Part shown: one piece after another, positions 7,803-55,896 of the stretch
Position numbering within the stretch: position 1 is the stretch's first letter
How the letters are laid out: every line of letters begins with the position of its first letter
Origin: Lachnospiraceae bacterium
GTDB lineage: Bacteria > Bacillota > Clostridia > Lachnospirales > Lachnospiraceae
Assembly: GCA_017450065.1 (NCBI GenBank)
Contig: JAFSYI010000023.1
Location: forward strand, 1 to 64,000
Direction of reading: 5' to 3'
Length of the DNA: 64,000 nt
Translations under genes and position numbers: made by a program
The notes under the pieces: generated by a model
What the model saw: the letters and a program-made list of their open reading frames with translations, nothing else
What the model was told of the DNA's origin: nothing
The model's database searches: none

Positions 7803-8546
7803 ATGCCATACAAATACGAAACCCATCTTCATACCAGTGCTTCATCGGCATGCGGTAAGTCCAGGGGATATGAGTATCTGGAAAGATTTAAGGAGCTTGG
7901 ATATGATGGGATATTTATAACAGAGCATTTCTATCTCGGAAACACATGTATTCCAAGATCTCTTCCATGGAATGAATGGGTGGACGAATACAGCCGCAGT
8001 TATTATGAAACAAAGGAGGCGGGTATCAGAAAAGGAATACAGGTATTCTTCGGATGGGAAAGCACCTATGGTACCGGTGAGGACTTCCTTATATATGGTC
8101 TTGATACGGACTGGCTGAAAAGACATCCCGAAATAATCAGCCTTTCCCAGGAACAGCAATATGAACTCGTGCATTCCGAGGGAGGTCTTGTTGTACAGGC
8201 TCATCCGTTCAGAGAGCGGGGATACATGAATGAGATCAGACTGCATCCCAATCACTGTGATGCATGGGAAGTTGCTAACAGCGGAAATGAACCGTACATG
8301 GATCTGAGGGCATATGAATATGCAAAAGAGCACAATATGAGAATGACCTGCGGCTCTGATATACATTCGGCAGATCATGCGAACGAAGAAGAAGTATTCC
8401 CCATGCTGACCGATGAGCGCCTTACTTCGGAGATGGATTATGTGCGTATTATTATGTCGGGTACGGGCTTTGCGGCCGGGTTTCCGAAGGAACGGCTGAA
8501 CTGCAGTCTCCGCGAGCCGGGACTGCCTGTGATATGGTGCTGCTGA
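7803..8546 (+). CDS. PHP-domain phosphoesterase
   Basis: 247 residues with the PHP metal-site motifs in order: HLHTSASSACGK, FITEHFYLG, VVQAHPFR and TCGSDIHSADH. PHP proteins hydrolyse phosphoesters, for example histidinol phosphate or small nucleotides; the exact substrate is not evident. The start ATG 7803 follows AAGAGGAGC; an upstream in-frame ATG at 7746 would overlap the preceding gene and adds no domain. It is 13 bases after the epimerase stop, so likely in the same transcript. Confidence 0.85.
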   Translation: MPYKYETHLHTSASSACGKSRGYEYLERFKELGYDGIFITEHFYLGNTCIPRSLPWNEWVDEYSRSYYETKEAGIRKGIQVFFGWESTYGTGEDFLIYGLDTDWLKRHPEIISLSQEQQYELVHSEGGLVVQAHPFRERGYMNEIRLHPNHCDAWEVANSGNEPYMDLRAYEYAKEHNMRMTCGSDIHSADHANEEEVFPMLTDERLTSEMDYVRIIMSGTGFAAGFPKERLNCSLREPGLPVIWCC

Positions 8547-8614
8547 CCGTTTTTGAATTGTTACAGGGAGTTATAAGGACAAAGGATAAATAATAAAATT
8601 AAAGGAGGTTTCTT

Positions 8615-10045
8615 ATGGCAAAAACATTAAAGGATGTTCAGAAGCTGATCAAGGATAAAGGGATCAGGATGGTGGACTTTAAGCTTACGGATATTGACGG
8701 AAGATGGCGCCACCTGAGTATTCCGGCTGAAAGGCTGACGGAGAGTACCATGGAACACGGAATCGGTTTTGACGGATCCAATTACGGATATGCTCCGGTG
8801 GAGAACAGTGACATGGTCTTCATACCTGTTCTTGAATCGGCCGTTATAGACCGTTATGCCGAAGTACCGACTCTGTCTATGATCGGTGATGTGCGGGTGA
8901 TCGATCTTCCGGATAACAGACCCTTTGACCAGTATCCGAGAAATGTGGCCATACGTGCCCTGGAATACATGGAAGAGATTGGGGTGGCCGACAGGATGGT
9001 GATCGGACCGGAGTACGAATTCTATATCTTTGACAGTGTTCAGTACAGTACCGATTATTATAATATGTTTACCGAGATATATACTCCTCAGGCAGGTTTC
9101 GCTTCGGGATACGAAGATAATAATAACGGTTATCAGCTTAAGCCGGGAGCGGGATACCATAATTCACTTCCCACCGATATAAGGAACGATCTGAGATCAC
9201 GTATGTGCCTTGCCATGAGTGAATGGGGCATTGATGTTAAATACCATCACCCCGAGGTCGGCGGCAGCGGACAGATGGAGATAGAGGTAGAGCTCGGTGA
9301 TATGCTTAAGCTTGCGGATGATACGATGTCGGCAAAATACGTGATCAAGAATGAAGCCGTACTGGATGGCTGCACCGCCACATTCATGCCTAAGCCCCTG
9401 GCCGGGGAAGCAGGGAACGGAATGCATGTGCACATGCTTCTGTTCAAGAATGGCAAGCCTGTATTTTATGATGCGGACGGATATGCACAGCTCAGTAAGG
9501 AAGCACACTGGTTCATGGGCGGACTGCTCTCCCATGCGCGCTCCTTATGCGCAATAACCAATCCTTCCACCAATTCCTATAAGAGACTGATCCCGGGCTT
9601 TGAAGCGCCGGTTACCATAGGCTATGCAATGTCAAACCGCAGTGCGGTCATACGTATTCCCGCTTATGCCAAAACTCCGGAGACCAAGCGCTTCGAGCTC
9701 AGGAATCCTGATGCAACCTGTAACCCGTATTATGCTTATGCGGCGATACTGATGGCTGGACTTGACGGTATCAGGAATAAGATCGATCCACACAAAGCAG
9801 GCTGGGGGCCGTATGATTTCAATCTGTATGAGCTTTCGGATGAGGAGAAAGCTAAGCTTTCCGGACTCCCGGCATCGCTTGATGAAGCACTTGATGCGCT
9901 TGCGGCCGATCACGATTACCTGACGGCCGGAGGAGTGTTCCCCGAAAGGCTGCTGACCCAGCTCGCAGGAAGATGCAGAAAGGCAAGTGACAGGATTTCA
10001 AGGCTGCCGCATCCTGCGGAGTTCGCCGAGTATTACGATCTGTAA
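8615..10045 (+). CDS. glnA: type I glutamine synthetase
   Basis: 476 residues catalysing glutamate + NH3 + ATP to glutamine. The beta-grasp N-domain carries the GIGFDGSNYGY segment; the catalytic domain has EYEFYIF, the ATP-site KPLAGEAGNGMHVH, the glutamate loop NPSTNSYKRLIPGFEAP and RFELRNPDATCNPYYAYA. NLYEL (Tyr about 405) aligns with the adenylylation-site tyrosine of beta-type GSI enzymes. Normal length. A textbook AAAGGAGG precedes ATG 8615. It is not next to amtB or glnB here. Confidence 0.96.
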   Translation: MAKTLKDVQKLIKDKGIRMVDFKLTDIDGRWRHLSIPAERLTESTMEHGIGFDGSNYGYAPVENSDMVFIPVLESAVIDRYAEVPTLSMIGDVRVIDLPDNRPFDQYPRNVAIRALEYMEEIGVADRMVIGPEYEFYIFDSVQYSTDYYNMFTEIYTPQAGFASGYEDNNNGYQLKPGAGYHNSLPTDIRNDLRSRMCLAMSEWGIDVKYHHPEVGGSGQMEIEVELGDMLKLADDTMSAKYVIKNEAVLDGCTATFMPKPLAGEAGNGMHVHMLLFKNGKPVFYDADGYAQLSKEAHWFMGGLLSHARSLCAITNPSTNSYKRLIPGFEAPVTIGYAMSNRSAVIRIPAYAKTPETKRFELRNPDATCNPYYAYAAILMAGLDGIRNKIDPHKAGWGPYDFNLYELSDEEKAKLSGLPASLDEALDALAADHDYLTAGGVFPERLLTQLAGRCRKASDRISRLPHPAEFAEYYDL

Positions 10046-10080
10046 TGCCGATAAAATGGCTTTATACGTGAAGCAATCTC

Positions 10081-10109
10081 TGTACAAAACGTTCAGGCTG
10101 CGATATAAT
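10081..10109 (+). promoter_or_regulatory. promoter of the NifU-like/GGGtGRT operon
   Basis: TGTACA (10081-10086), 17 bases, TATAAT (10104-10109); AAGGAGG and the start codon follow at 10143. Confidence 0.75.
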
Positions 10110-10142
10110 TAATGAATCAGAATAAATAAGGAGGTTTACCAC

Positions 10143-10835
10143 ATGATCTATTCAACAGAAGTAAAGGCAATGTGCCCCGTACATCAGGGCGCCCGTCATG
10201 GTGCTGCACCCATTCCCGAAGAAGCTAAATGGGTAAAGGCTAAAGAGATTAAGGACATATCCGGATATACACACGGTATCGGATGGTGTGCTCCCCAGCA
10301 GGGATGCTGTAAGTTATCCTTAAACGTTAAGGATGGTATCATCCAGGAAGCTCTGGTTGAAACACTTGGATGTTCAGGTATGACTCATTCGGCAGCAATG
10401 GCTTCCGAGATACTTCCGGGTCTTACAATACTTGAGGCTCTTAATACAGACCTTGTATGCGATGCCATCAATACAGCCATGAGAGAGCTCTTCCTTCAGA
10501 TCGTTTACGGCCGCACACAGAGTGCATTCTCAGAGGATGGCCTTCAGATCGGTGCAGGTCTTGAGGACCTTGGCAAGGGTACACGCTCAATGCTCGGAAC
10601 AACCTACGGAACACTTGAAAAAGGTCCCAGATATCTCGAGCTTACCGATGGATACATCACACATCTTGCGCTTGATGAGGATGATGAGATCATCGGTTAC
10701 AAGTACATCAACTTCGGTAAGATGATGGATTTCATCAAGGCCGGTGATGATGCCGCTACTGCAGTTGAGAAGGCTTCGGGCCAGTACGGCCGTGTTGCTG
10801 ATGCGGTCAGGCTGATTGACCCTCGTAAAGAGTGA
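10143..10835 (+). CDS. NifU-like iron-sulfur cluster scaffold protein
   Basis: 230 residues. Cysteines appear in AMCPVHQ, GIGWCAPQQGCCKLSL and ETLGCSGMTHSAAM; the last matches the NifU_N/IscU-type core in which conserved cysteines bind a transient Fe-S cluster. The C-terminal half (GYITHLALDEDDEIIGYKYI) is not in classical IscU. It is 18 bases upstream of the GGGtGRT gene; the two families are regularly adjacent in clostridia, so a joint role is likely but unknown. AAGGAGG at 10131 sets the start. Confidence 0.75.
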   Translation: MIYSTEVKAMCPVHQGARHGAAPIPEEAKWVKAKEIKDISGYTHGIGWCAPQQGCCKLSLNVKDGIIQEALVETLGCSGMTHSAAMASEILPGLTILEALNTDLVCDAINTAMRELFLQIVYGRTQSAFSEDGLQIGAGLEDLGKGTRSMLGTTYGTLEKGPRYLELTDGYITHLALDEDDEIIGYKYINFGKMMDFIKAGDDAATAVEKASGQYGRVADAVRLIDPRKE

Positions 10836-47900: not shown

Positions 47901-49349
47901 ATGTTATTCAGCACGGCAGCCTTTGCGGTATTTATGACGGCGGTCTTCTTTGCTTACTGGCTTATGCCGCATAAGTACAGATGGATAGTCATACTTGCCG
48001 CAAATGCATGGTTTTACATAAGCTATGATATAAAGTATCTGGCTGTGATACTCGTGACGATGCTTGCTTCCTATCTGTGTGCGATCCTCATAGAGAAGCA
48101 GGATAATGAGGTTAAAAAGAAAAAGACTGTAATGGCAACAGGGGTAGTGGTAACATTATCCCTGTTACTTGTGTTTAAATATCTTAATTTTGCCCTGTAT
48201 ACGGTTGCGAAGGTATTAAACAGGTTCAGTATCCCGATGCAGGAAACAACGCTTAAGCTGATAATGCCTGTGGGAATATCCTTCTACACCTTTATGGCGG
48301 TAGGCTACATAGTGGATGTGTACAGGGGAAAGACGAGGGCTGTGAGGCATTTTGGAAAATATGCGATCTTTGTATCTTTTTTCCCCAATATATCATCAGG
48401 CCCCATAGAAAGAGCGGAACATTTTATCCCGCAGATAGATAAGGAAAAAATATTTGATTACGATTCGGTTGTCTATGGAGCAAGGCTGCTGTTTCTGGGT
48501 CTTATCAAGAAGATCGTCATAGCGGACATGATGACAAAATATGTTGACGAAGTGTTCAATAAGGTGCCGGAACATTATGGTATCTGTTTTGCATGGGCTA
48601 CTCTTCTATATACCTTCCAGATATACTGTGATTTTTCCGGATACTCGGATATGGCGGTCGGAGCGGCAAGAATGCTCGGCTTTGATCTTATACAGAATTT
48701 CAGGCAGCCTTATTTTGCAGGCAGCATTAAGGAATTCTGGGCACGCTGGCATATTTCGCTTTCGACGTGGTTCAGAGATTATGTATATATTCCGCTTGGA
48801 GGTAACAGGTGCTCAAAGGCCAGACGAGATATGAACCTTCTGATAACCTTCCTGTGCAGTGGACTGTGGCATGGGGCCAGCTGGACCTTTGTGCTTTGGG
48901 GCGGTATCCACGGGGTATGCCAGATCATCGAAAACCGGATTAAGGAGAGAATAGGGCTGACCAGAGAGAAGGAGAAGGCGCTTTCCGGACCGGTTAAGCT
49001 TCTTCTAACGCTTATAACCTTCTGTATTGTCAGTTATGCTTGGATGTTCTTCCGCGCGAATTCAATTTCGGAGGCTCTTTATATAGTCAGAAGCATGTTC
49101 ACCGACTGGTCACTTAAGGGTGCAATGGCTCAGATGACAATGAGCGGCAAGTCTGTTGTAAAGACAAGCCTTGCCATAGTGCTGCTTATCATATATGACT
49201 GTCTGAACGAAAAGAAGGATATGTTAAAAGAGCTTAACAGACTGCCTTCAGCCGTACGCTTTGCAGGCTATGTTCTGGCGGCAATAACGGTGATAGCACT
49301 TAAGGTGAATAATTCATATGCCCAGGAATTCATATATTTCAAGTTTTAA
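47901..49349 (+). CDS. MBOAT-family O-acyltransferase (AlgI/DltB-like)
   Basis: 482 residues, about ten membrane helices. Hallmarks are FFPNISSGPIERAEHFIPQ, FARWHISLSTWFRDYVYIPLGG (here FWARWHIS) and LWHGASWTFVLWGG with the catalytic His at about 324. It passes acyl (usually acetyl) groups across the membrane for transfer to a wall glycan. The stop overlaps the start of the SGNH-like partner (TAATG), the pairing seen in AlgI/AlgJ, PatA/PatB and DltB/DltD systems. Its ribosome site is TACGGAGG. Confidence 0.94.
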   Translation: MLFSTAAFAVFMTAVFFAYWLMPHKYRWIVILAANAWFYISYDIKYLAVILVTMLASYLCAILIEKQDNEVKKKKTVMATGVVVTLSLLLVFKYLNFALYTVAKVLNRFSIPMQETTLKLIMPVGISFYTFMAVGYIVDVYRGKTRAVRHFGKYAIFVSFFPNISSGPIERAEHFIPQIDKEKIFDYDSVVYGARLLFLGLIKKIVIADMMTKYVDEVFNKVPEHYGICFAWATLLYTFQIYCDFSGYSDMAVGAARMLGFDLIQNFRQPYFAGSIKEFWARWHISLSTWFRDYVYIPLGGNRCSKARRDMNLLITFLCSGLWHGASWTFVLWGGIHGVCQIIENRIKERIGLTREKEKALSGPVKLLLTLITFCIVSYAWMFFRANSISEALYIVRSMFTDWSLKGAMAQMTMSGKSVVKTSLAIVLLIIYDCLNEKKDMLKELNRLPSAVRFAGYVLAAITVIALKVNNSYAQEFIYFKF

Positions 49350-50428
49350 TGTCTGCTTTGGGAACAGGAAAGAGTATGAAAAAGTTTGTTTTGAAATTTG
49401 CGGCTTTTGCCGTTATAGTGGTTGGATTCTTTCTGACGGTCAGTATAGGGATCGACCCGTATAACATCTTTCACTATAACTATCCGCGGAATAACGGCAT
49501 AGAAGCGAACAAGAACTTTATAAAGACAAGGTATATGATCGCTGAGCCTGGGAAATTTGATTCGTTTCTTTTCGGCTCATCACGTGCGGGATTTACCGAT
49601 GTGGAGGCACTGCCTGACGGAAAATACTATAATATGTGCTCATCCGAAGCACTTCCGGCAGAACACGTACGGCTTCTTAAAGAGCTTATAAGACACGGTA
49701 TCGTACCGGAGAATGTAACCGTTATGGTAGATGATATATCCTGCTTTGTGGATCCGGACGGGCTGCATAAGACAATGCTGTTCCGTATTCCGTATCCCGA
49801 TGATAATATAAGCTCATGGTTTGCCTTTTATGTAAAATACTGTGACATACTCACAACCTGGCAGGCTTACAGGGAGGTGCGGGATTACGTTCCCACGGAT
49901 CAGGATTACACCGACAGATACAGACGAAGCGGATCGGAGCGCCTTGACAATGACCGTCCGTTCCAGGATGAGAGTCATGTCGGGTACTGGGCTGATTACT
50001 ACGAACTAAGAGTCGATGCTGTTATGGCAGATATAAGAGAGCTTAAATCCATTTGTGAACAGAACGGTATTAATCTGCGTATAATGACCAATCCGCTGTA
50101 TCATCTCACATATCAGAGAGATATAGAGAACGGATATCTTGATTTCCTTTATGCACTGGCCGGCGAGGTGGACTATTGGAATTTCAGTTCTTTTTCCGAT
50201 ATCACTCTTAATGACAATAATTATTATGAGACCAGCCATTTCAGACCATCGGTGTCAGATAAGATGATGGACACCGTGTATAACGGTACACAGGACGATG
50301 CTCTGTGGAAACAGGGCTTTGGAGTAAAGGTTACAAAGGAAAACAGGGACGAATTTATTTACTTTCTGAAATATCAGGCTGAAGAGAGAGGAGTGGTTCT
50401 TCCGGCAAGTACCGTGGGAGCCTACTGA
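49349..50428 (+). CDS. SGNH-like extracytoplasmic partner of the MBOAT acyltransferase
   Basis: 359 residues: one N-terminal signal anchor (FVLKFAAFAVIVVGFFLTVSIG), then an outer domain. DSFLFGSSRAGFTDVE (about 70-85) resembles the SGNH nucleophile block and YYETSHFRPSVSDKMM (His about 297) the terminal Asp/Ser-x2-His block. It lacks close match to named families. Translationally coupled to the MBOAT gene, it probably completes acyl transfer to the glycan. Another pair of the same type is at the right window edge. Confidence 0.7.
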   Translation: MSALGTGKSMKKFVLKFAAFAVIVVGFFLTVSIGIDPYNIFHYNYPRNNGIEANKNFIKTRYMIAEPGKFDSFLFGSSRAGFTDVEALPDGKYYNMCSSEALPAEHVRLLKELIRHGIVPENVTVMVDDISCFVDPDGLHKTMLFRIPYPDDNISSWFAFYVKYCDILTTWQAYREVRDYVPTDQDYTDRYRRSGSERLDNDRPFQDESHVGYWADYYELRVDAVMADIRELKSICEQNGINLRIMTNPLYHLTYQRDIENGYLDFLYALAGEVDYWNFSSFSDITLNDNNYYETSHFRPSVSDKMMDTVYNGTQDDALWKQGFGVKVTKENRDEFIYFLKYQAEERGVVLPASTVGAY

Positions 50429-50431
50429 TAT

Positions 50432-50995
50432 ATGACCGGTGAAACAGTGAAAAGGGTGCGGAGTATTTGTCTGTGTGCGGTATTTGGGTGCACGATGGAG
50501 CTGGCGGCGGCGCTGCTCCTCGGAAGCATATTAGCTTTTTTCCCGGAGACTGCGGCCGGCTATCAGGGACAGATGGATTCGAAACTTGCGGGCGGAATGA
50601 TAAGTCTTTTTATTGTAGCCTTTTTTTCTCCTCTGTTTGAAGAAGCTGTTTTCAGGTTCCTTTTGCTGGGGGTATTGGAAAGAAAGACAGGCTTTGCGGC
50701 AGCAAATGTGATCCAGGCACTCATCTTCGGAATATATCATATGAGTGTTATACAGGGAATATATGCATTTCTGCTCGGAATGCTGATAGGACTTCTTAAG
50801 CATTATACGGGGACGTTAATAAGCTGCATATGCTTCCATGTTTTTTTCAATATAACCGGAATACTTGTCAACATATACATGCCGGCAGAAATAGGTACCA
50901 TTAACAGGACTGCTGCAATGATCGCCGGTATTTCTGTTTCCTGTGTACTTTTTATCCTGATACGACGGAACCGATGTGATGTGCAAAAAGGCTGA
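50432..50995 (+). CDS. CPBP-family intramembrane metalloprotease
   Basis: 187 residues, about six membrane helices. The glutamates of FEEAVFRFLLLG (about 69-80), His in FGIYHMSVIQG and HVFFN are the three motifs of the CAAX-protease/bacteriocin-immunity (Abi/CPBP) family. Role unknown; relatives serve in immunity to bacteriocins or membrane protein processing. It starts three bases after the SGNH-like gene, so it may end the long + operon. Its last 44 bases overlap the convergent ATP-grasp gene. Confidence 0.85.
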   Translation: MTGETVKRVRSICLCAVFGCTMELAAALLLGSILAFFPETAAGYQGQMDSKLAGGMISLFIVAFFSPLFEEAVFRFLLLGVLERKTGFAAANVIQALIFGIYHMSVIQGIYAFLLGMLIGLLKHYTGTLISCICFHVFFNITGILVNIYMPAEIGTINRTAAMIAGISVSCVLFILIRRNRCDVQKG

Positions 50996-51944
50996 CCATG
51001 TCTATATCTGTATTGGCATAAACCATACGCGCTCCCACGACATCCTCAAATTCATTAAAGACGGGTTCCCCGTCTTTATCGAAGACGAAATCAACACCCA
51101 TATAATCTCCGGGGAGAGCCTCAGCCAGTTTTTCCGCAACGGAGCGTTCCCTTTGACCCGGATCATAAAGCGAAGCGTTTCCACCCAGGGAAAAGTTGGC
51201 ACAAAGATCTCCGGAGTTCTTTGCGGTCCTCATCATTCCGGCAACGATCTTACCGCCTATAAAATAGACACGGAGATCCCTTCCGCGAACCGATGCAAGA
51301 CGCTGGATGATAAGCTTACGGTACGGATATCTGTTATGATCGACAATGATCCCCTTTATCGCCTGAAGGAGCTCTGCTTCGCTGTTTATAAGGGAAACAT
51401 GTTTTCCGCCGTGTCCCTCTGCGGGTTTTAGTACGAATGGATAACCGAAGGCTTCGGCTTTAAGTCTGACGGAATTATATCCTTCGGTATCGGTAAGCGA
51501 TCTTATACCGGCATACAGAATTGTCAGGTCATCACTGCCGTTTCCGGAATCGGGCAGCATTGAAAGTATCTCTTCTTCATTGACAGTAACGAACGGCATA
51601 TAGGGAACACCGAGCTTATCGGCAACCTTATATGAAAGCTCCTTATCATTGGCTACTTTTGTTACCTCTGCAGGATTAAAGACCCGTATCCCCTGCTTCT
51701 CAAAATCATAAGCTATATCTGCATTACGTGAACGATTCACAATGAAAGCGGGCGTTTCCTTACGGCTTAGCAGTTCATCAGCCAGAGAACTTAAATTCAT
51801 GGCATAAGCATCTGAAACATAATCTGTATATATGAGCTTAAGAGTGAGTCCATAGGGTTCGCACTCTTTCTGCAGCTTCTCTATGAACCATTTGTTAACG
51901 GAAGCACTTTCCGATTCATACAGCAGCCAACCTGTTTTATTCAT
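50952..51944 (-). CDS. ATP-grasp ligase, RimK-like (second of tandem pair)
   Basis: 330 residues if started at the ATG with AAAGGTGGTGAC upstream (51944), which also aligns MNKTGWLLYESES with the start of its neighbour; an ATG at 52007 coupled to the preceding stop (ATGA) would add 21 residues. ATP-grasp landmarks: FVLKPAEGHGGKHVSLI, LIIQRLASVRGRDLRVYFIG, ANFSLGGNASLYD and PVFNEFEDVVGARMVY. RimK/LysX-type enzymes ligate an amino acid or amine to a carboxylate. No product can be named. Confidence 0.8.
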   Translation of the reverse strand: MNKTGWLLYESESASVNKWFIEKLQKECEPYGLTLKLIYTDYVSDAYAMNLSSLADELLSRKETPAFIVNRSRNADIAYDFEKQGIRVFNPAEVTKVANDKELSYKVADKLGVPYMPFVTVNEEEILSMLPDSGNGSDDLTILYAGIRSLTDTEGYNSVRLKAEAFGYPFVLKPAEGHGGKHVSLINSEAELLQAIKGIIVDHNRYPYRKLIIQRLASVRGRDLRVYFIGGKIVAGMMRTAKNSGDLCANFSLGGNASLYDPGQRERSVAEKLAEALPGDYMGVDFVFDKDGEPVFNEFEDVVGARMVYANTDIDMVSLFAHHIGSVVSG

Positions 51945-52003
51945 TCCTGTCACCACCTTTAACTGTTTAAATTCAGGAATCCGTTGTGAACATTCCATAA
52001 ATA

Positions 52004-52948
52004 TCATAATTTCTTTATTTTGGGTCGTCCGATGCTGTTCAGTATATGTGCAACAATGGCGTCTGCAGCATTAATACCTGTACATTCGAATATTCCTTTG
52101 AAATGTGCATTGGAATTGACTTCGCATAGTAAGGGTTCTCCGTCGCTGTCTGTAAGTATGTCAACTCCGGCATAATCAAGCTTCAGTATACTGCACGCCT
52201 TAAGAGCCATGGCAGCTTCCCGGTCTGTAGGAGTGTATGCCTTCGCGTGTCCGCCGAGAGCTATGTTTGCCCTGAAATCGCTTTCGTTATATCTGAGCAT
52301 TGAAGCAATGCATTTCCCGCCTACTACTATGATACGTTTGTCTTTACCGGATATCTGATGGTCGTTTGTCTGTTGTCCGTGAGTATTGGAATGTTCGGGT
52401 TTTATATATTCCTGGATCATACACGGACGTCCTTTAACAGTTCTTAAGATATCAACACACTGTTCATGCGTGCTTATCAGATGGACCTGCTCACCGAAGG
52501 AGCCGAAGCATTCCTTGAGCACAAACGGAAAGCCCATGCGTTCTTCAATCTGTATAAGAAAATCCGTATTGCAGTAACCCGGTCCTTCGTATGTAAAGGG
52601 TACGCTGTAGGTTACCGGCATCCTTACCGATCCTGCAAGCCTTGCACAGGTTAACGATTTGTCATCACAGGCTTCTATCGCATCCGCACAGTTAAAGAGT
52701 GTAAGTCCCGCCGCCTCAAGCACCCGTGCCAGCCGGATATCCTTGTCCCAGAAAATGACATAATCAGGCCGGCCGGTGTAAAGATCGGGATATACAATAC
52801 TGTTTATATCCGTTCTCACCGTGATATCTGCATTGGTCTTGAGCGTAAGTTCGCTTCCGGCTTTTCCTGCTGCCGTTATAAGCCAGTCATATAATTCACT
52901 GAATTTTCCGTTGTTAAGAAATCTGTTAACGATAAGCCAGCCCTTCAT
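52004..52948 (-). CDS. ATP-grasp ligase, RimK-like (first of tandem pair)
   Basis: 314 residues: MKGWLIVNRFLNNGKFSEL, FVLKECFGSFGEQVHLI, MIQEYIKPEHS, RIIVVGGKCIASMLRY, RANIALGGHAKAYTP and LLCEVNSNAHFKGI (metal ligands E and N). Clearly related to the next gene, with which it overlaps or nearly abuts, so the two probably arose by duplication and act in sequence or as a heteromer. AAAGGAGAATGT precedes the ATG. No peptide substrate gene is seen nearby. Confidence 0.82.
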   Translation of the reverse strand: MKGWLIVNRFLNNGKFSELYDWLITAAGKAGSELTLKTNADITVRTDINSIVYPDLYTGRPDYVIFWDKDIRLARVLEAAGLTLFNCADAIEACDDKSLTCARLAGSVRMPVTYSVPFTYEGPGYCNTDFLIQIEERMGFPFVLKECFGSFGEQVHLISTHEQCVDILRTVKGRPCMIQEYIKPEHSNTHGQQTNDHQISGKDKRIIVVGGKCIASMLRYNESDFRANIALGGHAKAYTPTDREAAMALKACSILKLDYAGVDILTDSDGEPLLCEVNSNAHFKGIFECTGINAADAIVAHILNSIGRPKIKKL

Positions 52949-53172
52949 ACATTCTCCTTTATGCTTTACGATCCTTCTTGTATTTTACACTTAAAACGGA
53001 CAGAATGCCATATGTATCGGATGAATGCAAAACAGTGAAAAATACGCAGTACTTTGAGGATTCCTTATGATACTACCTGTTCTGAACAGTTACGTGATTG
53101 TATTATATCTGAGCGGATGATAGAATTAAGCGGACAGGACAGGCTGAAAAATAATCTTGGAGAAGGTTTGAT
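52949..53172. other. divergent promoter region before the GTPase-nuclease fusion
   Basis: Contains the perfect 13-base palindrome CTGTTCTGAACAG (53077-53089), with TATTATATC (53101-) 11 bases further on as a possible -10 box. The ribosome site for the fusion gene is GGAGAAGG. The ATP-grasp pair starts on the other strand with TAAAAT as a possible -10. No ORF or structured RNA is recognised. Confidence 0.5.
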
Positions 53173-55896
53173 ATGAAGCATATAAATCTCGGTATAGTTG
53201 CCCATGTTGATGCGGGTAAAACGACTCTGACGGAAGCAATGCTGTATAAGGCAGGAAATATAAGGAAGCCCGGACGTGTAGACTCAGGGGATACATTTCT
53301 GGACACAGGTGAACAGGAACGGGAACGGGGGATCACGATCTATTCCAAACAGGCAGAGCTTCTGTTTGGAGAGTTCGGGATAACGCTTCTTGATACGCCG
53401 GGACATGTGGATTTCTCGGCCGAAGCTGAGAGTGTTCTCCAGGTACTTGATTACTGTATCCTTGTGATAAGTGCGGATGACGGAGTCAAGGGACATACCA
53501 TGACTCTGTGGTCACTGCTTAAGGAGTATGGTATACCTGTTTTTATTTTTATCAATAAGCTTGACCGGCCGGGGATGGACAGAGACGCCGTACTTAGGGA
53601 GATCAGGGGAAGGCTCGACGATAACTGTATCGATTTTTCGCATCTGTATACCGATGACAGCGCAATTGAAGGTGAAGGACCGGGATTTACGGATGAGGAT
53701 TACGAGTCGATCGCCATGTGTGACGAAGAGCTCATGGATGAATATCTTGCATCGGGCAGTCCTGTAAATGACGTGCAGATCGCTGAGCTTATAGCGCAGC
53801 GTAAGCTGTTTCCGGTGCTGTCCGGATCGGCGCTTAAGCTTGACGGGGTTGATGGCCTTATTGATTCGATGGGTAGATTTACGTTGATTAAGGAATACCC
53901 GCAGCAGTTCGCGGCAAGGGTTTATAAAATTACAAGGGATCCGCAGGGTAACAGGCTTACTCATCTTAAGATAGAAGGCGGAGTATTGCACGGACGGGAT
54001 GTGGTCGGTGAAGAAAAGATCAACCAGATAAGGATATATTCGGGAGACAGATATGAGACCGTTCCCGAGCTCGGAGCGGGAAGGATATGTACGGTTACCG
54101 GACTTAACGCAACCGGACAGGGCATGGGCCTGGGAACACTTAAGGGAACCAATCTTCCGATACTTGAACCGGTACTCTGCTACAGGGTGAGTGCGGATGA
54201 CGGAACGGATGATTCCGTGCTTCTTGGAAGGCTTCGGACTCTCGAGGAGGAGGATCCCCAGCTTAAGGTTGAATTTGATGAGAATAACAGACAGATCCTT
54301 CTTCGTGTCATGGGTACGGTTCAGCTTGAAGTGATCACGGAGACCATGAAAAAGAGGTTTGGAACAGGTATCAGATTCGATACAGGATCGGTTGTATATA
54401 AAGAGACAATAGCATCAGCTGTGGAAGGCGTGGGACATTATGAGCCGTTAAGGCATTATGCGGAAGCACATATCCTGCTGGAGCCCCAGCCAAGGGGAAG
54501 CGGACTAAGCTTTGATACCGCCTGCAGCGAGGACGTTCTTGACAGGAACTGGCAGCGTCTTATCCTTACTCATCTTAAGGAGAAGGTTCACAGAGGTGTG
54601 CTCACGGGTGCACCGGTAACCGATATGAAGATGACCCTGCTTACGGGGAAAGCACATCTTAAGCATACCGAGGGGGGTGACTTCAGGCAGGCTACCTACC
54701 GTGCTGTAAGGCAGGGGCTTATGTATGCAGAGAGTATTCTTCTGGAACCATACTATTATTACAGGATAGAAGTCCCTGTAGACTGTGTGGGACGGGTGAT
54801 GACGGATATAGAGAACATGAAGGGAAGGGTTGAAGCACCGCAGATAGAAGGGGATTCGGCCGTGCTTACAGGCACGGCTCCCGTTGTGTGCATCGGTAAT
54901 TATGCAAAGGAGCTTGCGGCATATACAAGGGGAACGGGATCGGTCTCACTGAGCATTGCGGGATACGGTCTGTGCCATAATCCCGAAGAGGTTATCGAAG
55001 AGGCAGGCTACTTACCGGAATCGGATATAAGGAATTCACCGGATTCTGTATTCTGCGCACACGGGGCAGGTTACGTGGTCCCATGGAATGAGGTATATGA
55101 CAATATGCATCTTCCGCATGCGTACGATCCCGGAAAGAATAATTACGGAGCTTCAGGCGCCGGTGACGGGGTGATACAGAATGCGGAGGACGCTGACGGA
55201 TACGGTACCGGACAGGGAGCATCCGGATTCCGGGCAAGACTTAATGAGAACGGGAAAAGCAGCGGACAGAGCGCATCCGGATCCATAGGAACTGATGAGA
55301 TAGATTCGATCCTCAATAAGACCTTTTACGCCAACAGCGATTCGACCGTAAAGGCCGAGGCCGAGAAACGTAAGGGAGTGGGAAAGGTGTCCGGTGCCAA
55401 TGTTGTGTCCACAGGCGGAAAGATAAATGACCCATATGATGATTTTAAGTATAATCCGGTTAAGAAAAAACAGAAGTACCTGCTCGTCGACGGATATAAC
55501 GTTATATATGCATGGCAGGAGTTAAGAACTCTTGCCGAAACAAATATTGATGGCGCAAGAGACAGACTTACCGATATCATGCATAATTACTGCGGAGCGG
55601 TTGACAGTATCGTGGTCGTTGTCTTTGATGCATATAGGGTTAAGGGAAGAAAGGCATCAGCGATCTCGGACGGACGGTTCAGGGTAGTCTATACCGGTGA
55701 AGACGAGACGGCGGATCAGTACATTGAGAGATTTGCCAACCGGAACGGACGTAAATATGAGATCACGGTCGCCACATCGGACAGGCTTGAACAGATCATC
55801 ACAAGAGGAAATAACTGTTATCTGATCTCTTCCCGTGAACTGGAAGCCGTGGTCAGGGATGAACTGAACAGACTGATGAAGGGTTATTCCACATGA
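53173..55896 (+). CDS. Tet(M)/EF-G-like translational GTPase fused to a Rae1/YacP-type NYN nuclease
   Basis: 907 residues. Residues 1 to about 600 are a ribosomal-protection-type GTPase: AHVDAGKTT (10-18), RGITI, DTPGHVDF, INKLDRPGMD, then EF-G domains II-V (GHYEPLRHYAEAHILLEP, LTGAPVTDMKMTLL). The domain IV tip reads HLKHTEGGDFRQATYR and lacks Tet(M)'s YSPVST loop, so tetracycline resistance is unlikely. A low-complexity linker (about 640-760) leads to a NYN_YacP domain (about 767-907): LLVDGYNVIYAW, VVVFDAY, DETADQYIERFA, VATSDRLEQ. All four acidic sites are kept. Rae1 of B. subtilis cuts mRNA in the ribosomal A site, so the fusion is likely a GTP-driven ribosome-associated mRNA nuclease (inference). 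Confidence 0.85.
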   Translation: MKHINLGIVAHVDAGKTTLTEAMLYKAGNIRKPGRVDSGDTFLDTGEQERERGITIYSKQAELLFGEFGITLLDTPGHVDFSAEAESVLQVLDYCILVISADDGVKGHTMTLWSLLKEYGIPVFIFINKLDRPGMDRDAVLREIRGRLDDNCIDFSHLYTDDSAIEGEGPGFTDEDYESIAMCDEELMDEYLASGSPVNDVQIAELIAQRKLFPVLSGSALKLDGVDGLIDSMGRFTLIKEYPQQFAARVYKITRDPQGNRLTHLKIEGGVLHGRDVVGEEKINQIRIYSGDRYETVPELGAGRICTVTGLNATGQGMGLGTLKGTNLPILEPVLCYRVSADDGTDDSVLLGRLRTLEEEDPQLKVEFDENNRQILLRVMGTVQLEVITETMKKRFGTGIRFDTGSVVYKETIASAVEGVGHYEPLRHYAEAHILLEPQPRGSGLSFDTACSEDVLDRNWQRLILTHLKEKVHRGVLTGAPVTDMKMTLLTGKAHLKHTEGGDFRQATYRAVRQGLMYAESILLEPYYYYRIEVPVDCVGRVMTDIENMKGRVEAPQIEGDSAVLTGTAPVVCIGNYAKELAAYTRGTGSVSLSIAGYGLCHNPEEVIEEAGYLPESDIRNSPDSVFCAHGAGYVVPWNEVYDNMHLPHAYDPGKNNYGASGAGDGVIQNAEDADGYGTGQGASGFRARLNENGKSSGQSASGSIGTDEIDSILNKTFYANSDSTVKAEAEKRKGVGKVSGANVVSTGGKINDPYDDFKYNPVKKKQKYLLVDGYNVIYAWQELRTLAETNIDGARDRLTDIMHNYCGAVDSIVVVVFDAYRVKGRKASAISDGRFRVVYTGEDETADQYIERFANRNGRKYEITVATSDRLEQIITRGNNCYLISSRELEAVVRDELNRLMKGYST

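Follow-up and report, generated by a model that had tools for sequence, protein, structure and literature searches.

Several described systems bear on the gene studied here. Ribosomal protection factors of the Tet type bind at, or overlap with, the ribosomal A site, contact C1054 via Pro-509 of TetM and hydrolyse GTP to dissociate (PMC8161019), and the Rae1 (YacP) protein of Bacillus subtilis destabilises mRNA in a translation-dependent manner (PMC10100781). Atkinson in 2015 reported Tet proteins carrying a YacP-like NYN domain in ten clostridial species, proposed a possible role in resistance and flagged their RNase ability for testing (PMC4342817; here and below, papers are cited for the portions of their text available to us). 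We analysed a window of 64,000 nucleotides, by which we mean the whole stretch formed by positions 1 to 64,000 of contig JAFSYI010000023.1 (Lachnospiraceae bacterium, assembly GCA_017450065.1), and in it a gene that joins an EF-G-like GTPase to an NYN_YacP nuclease domain. Since this architecture has been in print since 2015, the fusion itself is no discovery of ours: the window gene is a further member, with the same architecture and from the same bacterial group (Clostridiales, judging by the relatives used here). However, where the earlier account spoke of Tet proteins in ten species, the members compared here make up a subfamily of their own that most genera of one family possess, in genomes without the native yacP. 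The family-wide spread, the finding that the fused GTPase arose once, the disappearance of native yacP from its operon and the separate standing of the subfamily are results of the present analysis. These fusions may already appear in Condon's 2018 article on the distribution of Rae1. A search of one open-licence library brought up no more recent work on the fusion, and the available part of PMC7725328 does not mention it. The reading that we favour, with a probability of about 0.5, is that a long-standing translation factor carries the only Rae1/YacP found in the cell on a flexible linker and delivers it to the ribosomal A site.

A preliminary description, made from the sequence alone, had claimed a continuous frame of 907 residues running through a GTPase, a linker and an NYN domain, with the G motifs and the acidic residues of the nuclease all present. 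This is borne out: a single ATG-started frame carries the domains in that order, and GTP_EFTU, EFG_III, EFG_IV, EFG_C and NYN_YacP all score above their Pfam cut-offs, domain II alone falling just below (Table 1). The G-domain motifs AHVDAGKTT, RGITI, DTPGH, NKLD and SAL, tabulated across 56 relatives, are retained with few exceptions. The last 143 residues match B. subtilis YacP (PDB 5mq8/5mq9, 2e-19), and D773, D819, D848 and D870 align on YacP D7, D53, D81 and D104, which we take to be the catalytic aspartates of its active site. All four, as well as N776, are kept in 55/55 full-length members (56 rows minus L059, which is cut by a contig end; a few near copies are among them), and, as judged from this alignment, the nuclease aspartates are intact. 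The likeness to B. subtilis Rae1 thus comprises the NYN_YacP domain, the four aspartates and the motifs DGYN, FDA, ETAD and ATSD; Rae1, however, is free-standing and lies beside rlmB (yacO), whereas the domain is here joined to a GTPase and found outside that operon.

What kind of GTPase carries the nuclease? A search of solved structures with the first 600 residues gave TetO and TetM as best matches, and among the curated models a Tet one scores highest. Against the NCBIfam models, however, the window protein reaches 421 bits with tet_protect (cut-off 775) and 292 bits with TetM/W/O/S (cut-off 1100), whereas the genuine Tet protein of a relative scores 820 and 1283 bits, respectively; three scanned members of the same clade that lack the nuclease ('unfused' members) are also far below the Tet cut-offs. 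The EF-G model TIGR00484 gives 294 bits for a cut-off of 659. The preliminary description had further held that the domain IV tip lacks the YSPVST loop of Tet proteins and that this is not a plain tetracycline-resistance protein, and both statements stand, with KHTEGGDFR in place of the loop. The tip motif HTxGGDFR is found in 51/56 fused and 10/10 unfused relatives examined, while the same columns read YSPVSTPADF in a genuine Tet frame used as positive control (L072), LEHTHPLDF in a Tet-like frame (L071) and YHEVDSSEMAF in the genome's EF-G. The candidate of a plain Tet gene was rejected on these scores and on the replaced loop. Tet(M), Tet(O) and Tet(W) resemble the window protein in their EF-G-like domains (31-33% identity to Tet-sized frames), but their tip is YSPVSTPADFR, and the window protein has in addition a nuclease tail and an extension after domain V, usually of the form SVFCAHGAGxxVxW (a more permissive pattern, S[VI]F[CYF], occurs in 56/56 fused and 10/10 unfused members). 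EF-G shares the domain order and the G motifs, but identity to the two EF-G-type frames of the own genome is about 26%, and the EF-G tip is not in the window protein. On this sequence evidence, the GTPase is an EF-G-shaped translation factor subfamily of its own, nearest to but outside the Tet ribosomal protection proteins.

The fused protein encoded on an Agathobacter rectalis plasmid (NZ_CP143948.1, positions 7977-10778, locus L293) is labelled by RefSeq as a TetM/TetW/TetO/TetS tetracycline resistance protein. This label and the top-scoring Tet model are in keeping with the role proposed in PMC4342817, in which a Tet-like protection protein with an added RNase would constitute a new resistance mechanism. 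We consider this very unlikely in view of the low Tet scores and the exchanged tip loop. Furthermore, a separate Tet-size frame (30-33% identical; such frames were not individually scored against Tet models) is also present in 21/80 fused genomes, and the gene is spread across the family, with any one neighbour family common to at most 3 of 25 fused loci and no mobile-element family among the flanking genes. The RefSeq label of the A. rectalis copy is likely an over-annotation.

The preliminary description proposed mapping the GTPase plus NYN_YacP architecture, which we did in a family sample (250 genomes from 249 genera, at least 90% complete except for the own genome), a genus sample (37 genomes, many of them incomplete) and a phylum sample (398 genomes, in which three GTPase candidates were scored per genome and fused or unfused state was called by frame length and score). 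YacP was detected in 224 of the 250 family genomes: it is fused in one frame in 205, standalone in 11 (174-210 aa long in ten cases, 260 aa in the other), absent in 26 and unclear in 8. In this large family of gut bacteria, the fused gene looks like the ordinary form of Rae1. For 135 of the 205 fused calls the YacP match lies in a frame of at least 848 aa, the GTPase having also been found for 80 of them and for G267, while 54 were called by frame length (G and L numbers are our handles for genomes and loci); the other 70 have a GTPase or re-run frame of 806-1095 aa and a YacP match in the genome. Some YacP rows have stop codons within the profile match (up to four, in G059), presumably beyond the end of the protein. 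The unclear cases comprise four genomes with matches at contig ends (G114, G117, G225 and G248), three with two overlapping or adjoining frames (G069, G155 and G227) and a 690-aa form (G151). In the genus, YacP occurs in 18/37 genomes and is standalone in 0/18; 17 are in frames of 864-934 aa, and in G028 the domain lies in a 403-aa frame with part of the GTPase, more of which is in a second, overlapping frame. The phylum sample yielded 30 fused and 7 unfused clade members, the fused ones belonging to the own family code and to 11 others. The own genome, whose assembly is 88% complete, has one PF05991 match only.

Assembly or frame error was named in the preliminary description as a possible source of the fusion. 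An annotation or assembly artefact would fit the split frames in four relatives (G028, G155, G227 and G069), but we find it hardly credible and rejected it: the same domain order recurs in relatives at 87, 73, 73 and 51% identity, and in independent assemblies that include the one-contig genomes G062, G192 and G229. The nearest named relatives of the window protein are from Lachnospiraceae metagenome-assembled genomes (L002-L004). At four loci of relatives (L016, L050, L290 and L291) the gene is in two overlapping frames; in L291 the overlap falls between GTPase and nuclease, so that the two parts are there separate frames.

Standalone yacP genes point to the ancestral location. In the family, they adjoin rlmB in 9/11 genomes (the gene is elsewhere in G084 and G217), with sigH on the other side in five and the full order cysE-cysS-mrnC-rlmB-yacP-sigH in four; operon genes were named by reading their sequences, and these loci are of unequal length. 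In the phylum sample, yacP stands between rlmB and sigH in 21/21 standalone loci (of 24, three near copies being left out), and in B. subtilis yacO (rlmB) neighbours rae1 and is transcribed together with it (PMC6613710). We then have 30 genomes, 26 fused ones hand-chosen from the 205 and 4 YacP-less ones of the genus, where the best rlmB locus contains yacP in none; sigH is found at 25 of these 30 loci, 2-992 bases from rlmB and at most 157 bases away in 23. The rlmB-sigH gap of the own genome measures 21 bases, and yacP is not there. As the rlmB-sigH slot is kept without yacP, the ancestral slot is present and the gene gone. Gene order thus indicates that the fused form replaced a free-standing yacP in this family, and that the place next to rlmB is the ancestral one. 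The own assembly has two cysS-mrnC-rlmB-sigH operons (L259 and L292, on contigs C28 and C100), both without yacP, possibly as a result of a mixed bin. The cysS of this operon is 37-40% identical to that of standalone genome G118 in the own genome (G000) and five others (G208, G066, G036, G034 and G010); in other genomes with a match identity is 64-77%, except 52% in G146, and G181 has no match. A replacement of cysteinyl-tRNA synthetase in those six genomes is possible.

BipA and LepA are GTPases thought to act in ribosome biogenesis, and the fused protein could similarly be a biogenesis factor, its GTPase carrying an RNase that processes rRNA or tRNA. The genes mrnC and rlmB, which adjoin yacP at its ancestral place, would suit such a role, as, by their names, we take them to be rRNA-processing genes. 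Mutants of yacO (rlmB) and rae1 were placed in one pathway in B. subtilis (PMC6613710), and rRNA or tRNA maturation was earlier proposed for YacP-like NYN domains (PMC4342817). However, Rae1 of B. subtilis needs translation to destabilise mRNA (PMC10100781), and the fused gene lies outside that operon in 26/26 genomes tested, which makes this role improbable to us.

Did the fusion arise once? In a tree of 76 GTPases (G146 being omitted as a duplicate locus), the 55 fused rows form one side of a branch with an SH-aLRT of 99. A stricter tree, built on 55 of 77 rows (the 22 dropped were near copies or rows that were long or doubtful), groups its 36 fused rows with bootstrap/SH-aLRT support of 100/99 and in 200/200 bootstrap trees. 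In the first tree, outside the fused and unfused members taken together are the genuine Tet L072, L071 (below the Tet cut-off), EF-G and a distant form (G579). These trees argue that the fused GTPase had a single origin. In the NYN trees all 11 standalone copies branch among the fused rows, both with 120 rows and with 107 (13 long, broken or near-copy rows removed), and the fused rows form one group in 0/200 bootstrap trees of the 107-row set. This nesting would be expected if the standalone YacP genes of the family were fission products of the fused gene, which we regard as a possibility. On the other hand, one fused NYN group is not rejected by the approximately unbiased (AU) test (p 0.212), and 9 of the 11 adjoin rlmB as in other families; for these two reasons we take the standalone copies as native genes.

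Within the family, GTPase and nuclease also tend to keep company when they are separate. An unfused clade GTPase is present in 9/11 family genomes with a standalone YacP (as exceptions, G041 has none and G090 has only the Tet-like L071 at 34%; in G118 the frame has 541 aa) and in 0/26 YacP-less family genomes (E <= 1e-60; one of these, G213, has a Tet frame); Fisher's test of 9/11 versus 0/26 gives 4e-7 with relatedness ignored. Among the 151 fused genomes searched (of 205), none has an extra unfused copy. Given the relatedness of these genomes, and given that one step suffices to lose a fused gene, the contrast between 9/11 and 0/26 is a pattern and no proof.

The linker measures 61-199 aa in 55 relatives (median 71) and carries a net positive charge over the last 35 residues in 52/55. 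A short motif, E[IVL]xxI[FLMI], occurs in 47/55 linkers compared with a mean of 0.3 and a maximum of 3 in 500 shuffles; this pattern was picked after viewing the linkers, two earlier ones having fitted poorly (11/55 and 21/55). Is the linker then a mere tether between two independent tools, Rae1 and an EF-G-like factor, fused for co-expression or ribosome proximity without any GTP gating? Its variable length would agree with this, as would the 11 of 250 family members with a standalone YacP, 9 of them having a separate GTPase, and the three of seven unfused GTPases of the phylum sample that occur in YacP-less genomes. The retention of the fusion in 205 of 250 family genomes and in 11 further family codes, and the conservation of the linker motif, speak against it, and we hold this explanation to be rather unlikely.

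Under the favoured reading of a translation factor that carries Rae1, we infer delivery of Rae1 to the A site, which might proceed as follows. The GTPase would dock on paused ribosomes whose A site is either free or blocked, and domain IV, with its HTxGGDFR tip, would probe or clear that site. Upon GTP hydrolysis the GTPase would retract, and the tethered nuclease could then enter the vacated A site and cut the mRNA; mRNA decay and ribosome rescue would follow the A-site cut. Compared with a free Rae1, the advantage would be a recruitment under GTP control. In favour of this reading we count the common ancestry of the fused GTPases, the one YacP match of the own genome, the rlmB loci without yacP and the complementary distribution of GTPase and YacP in the family, together with the A-site binding of Tet-type factors. 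In its most specific form, this scheme describes a GTP-gated A-site mRNase: the family would have made free Rae1 the cargo of an HTxGGDFR GTPase, with replacement of the ancestral gene, and cleavage would be licensed by GTP-dependent inspection of the A site, a proposal that we put forward tentatively and hold to be somewhat doubtful.

Several observations weigh against such a delivery mechanism. Two bulky parts would have to share one A site. Domain IV and the NYN domain can hardly be there together, and action in sequence or between ribosomes is more likely; as both parts would need the same A site, it is more plausible that one hands over to the other than that they occupy it jointly. The preliminary description's picture of a GTPase that brings the nuclease into the A site needs amending in this respect. 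An altered domain IV tip is seen in 5/56 fused members (L116, L126, L127, L129 and L131), and in the 690-aa form of G151 (L289, 1361-3430, minus strand), made of G, II, part of III and then NYN, domains IV and V and the extension are not recognised, which fits poorly with a need for the tip; this form may be a natural variant, decay or an assembly gap. The fused gene is also absent in 19/37 genomes of the genus, and in 9/17 of those with a completeness of 90% or more and a contamination of 5% or less; with 19/37 lacking it, the gene looks dispensable. Finally, YacP is present in four and missing in three of the seven phylum genomes with an unfused clade GTPase, at a base rate of 229/398 (Fisher p 1.0). 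The GTPase can hence serve without the nuclease, and a strict coupling of GTPase and YacP across the phylum finds no support, 4/7 being no more than the base rate.

A phage or anti-phage defence system was considered as well and rejected. No family matched the PADLOC models. Matches turned up in 113 phage records, but just two of them span 80% or more of the protein. These two, MT835514.1 (15276-17792) and MT835563.1 (5421-7958), are unannotated human-fecal 'Bacteriophage sp.' records in which the fusion is complete (49 and 46% identical, respectively), and are perhaps bacterial contigs. A scan of IMG/VR gave 69 loci, the best being 48% identical over residues 1-647, and none reaches the NYN part.

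Table 1. Layout of the fused gene in the window
Feature	Position	Strand	Basis or remark
Whole gene	53173..55896	+	ATG start, 907 aa + stop, single open frame
ggagaagg, ribosome-binding-site-like	53159..53166	+	Read from sequence
G domain, residues 2-233	53176..53871	+	Pfam PF00009 GTP_EFTU, 6e-50
Domain II, residues 246-313	53908..54111	+	PF22042, 24 bits, under cut-off 27
EF-G domain III, residues 332-400	54166..54372	+	Pfam EFG_III
EF-G domain IV, residues 406-519	54388..54729	+	Pfam EFG_IV
Domain IV tip loop KHTEGGDFR, residues 497-505	54661..54687	+	Alignment with relatives
EF-G domain V, residues 523-602	54739..54978	+	Pfam EFG_C
C-terminal extension with SVFCAHGAGYVVPW, residues 603-650	54979..55122	+	Common to fused and unfused members
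Linker, residues 652-766	55126..55470	+	Low complexity; end basic
Linker short motif EIDSIL (E[IVL]xxI[FLMI])	55297..55314	+	Linker comparison
NYN_YacP / Rae1 nuclease domain, residues 770-898	55480..55866	+	PF05991, 4e-40, 138 bits, cut-off 24.6

Of ten flanking genes scanned, eight have a Pfam match and two have none; the matches include two RimK-like ATP-grasp genes, a CAAX-type peptidase, an EPSP synthase and an HD-domain gene, and no mobile-element family is among them. The RimK-like genes are adjacent (50952-52948, minus strand) and also lie beside the fused gene in L002. A conserved neighbourhood of the fused gene was nevertheless rejected on the count of shared neighbour families given above. 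A consecutive set on the plus strand (47901-50995) comprises an MBOAT acyltransferase, a gene to which Pfam assigns no family and a membrane peptidase of the CAAX (Rce1-like) type. No RNA family above threshold and no tRNA was found in the window.

What does the fusion mean for the family? In most of the genera sampled, Rae1 is joined to an A-site-clearing kind of GTPase, and its operon lacks the free gene in the genomes tested, so that the recruitment of Rae1 becomes testable with one protein. In addition, some genes annotated as 'tetracycline resistance' in public gut genomes may be ordinary genes of the cell, and their labels could inflate resistance surveys.

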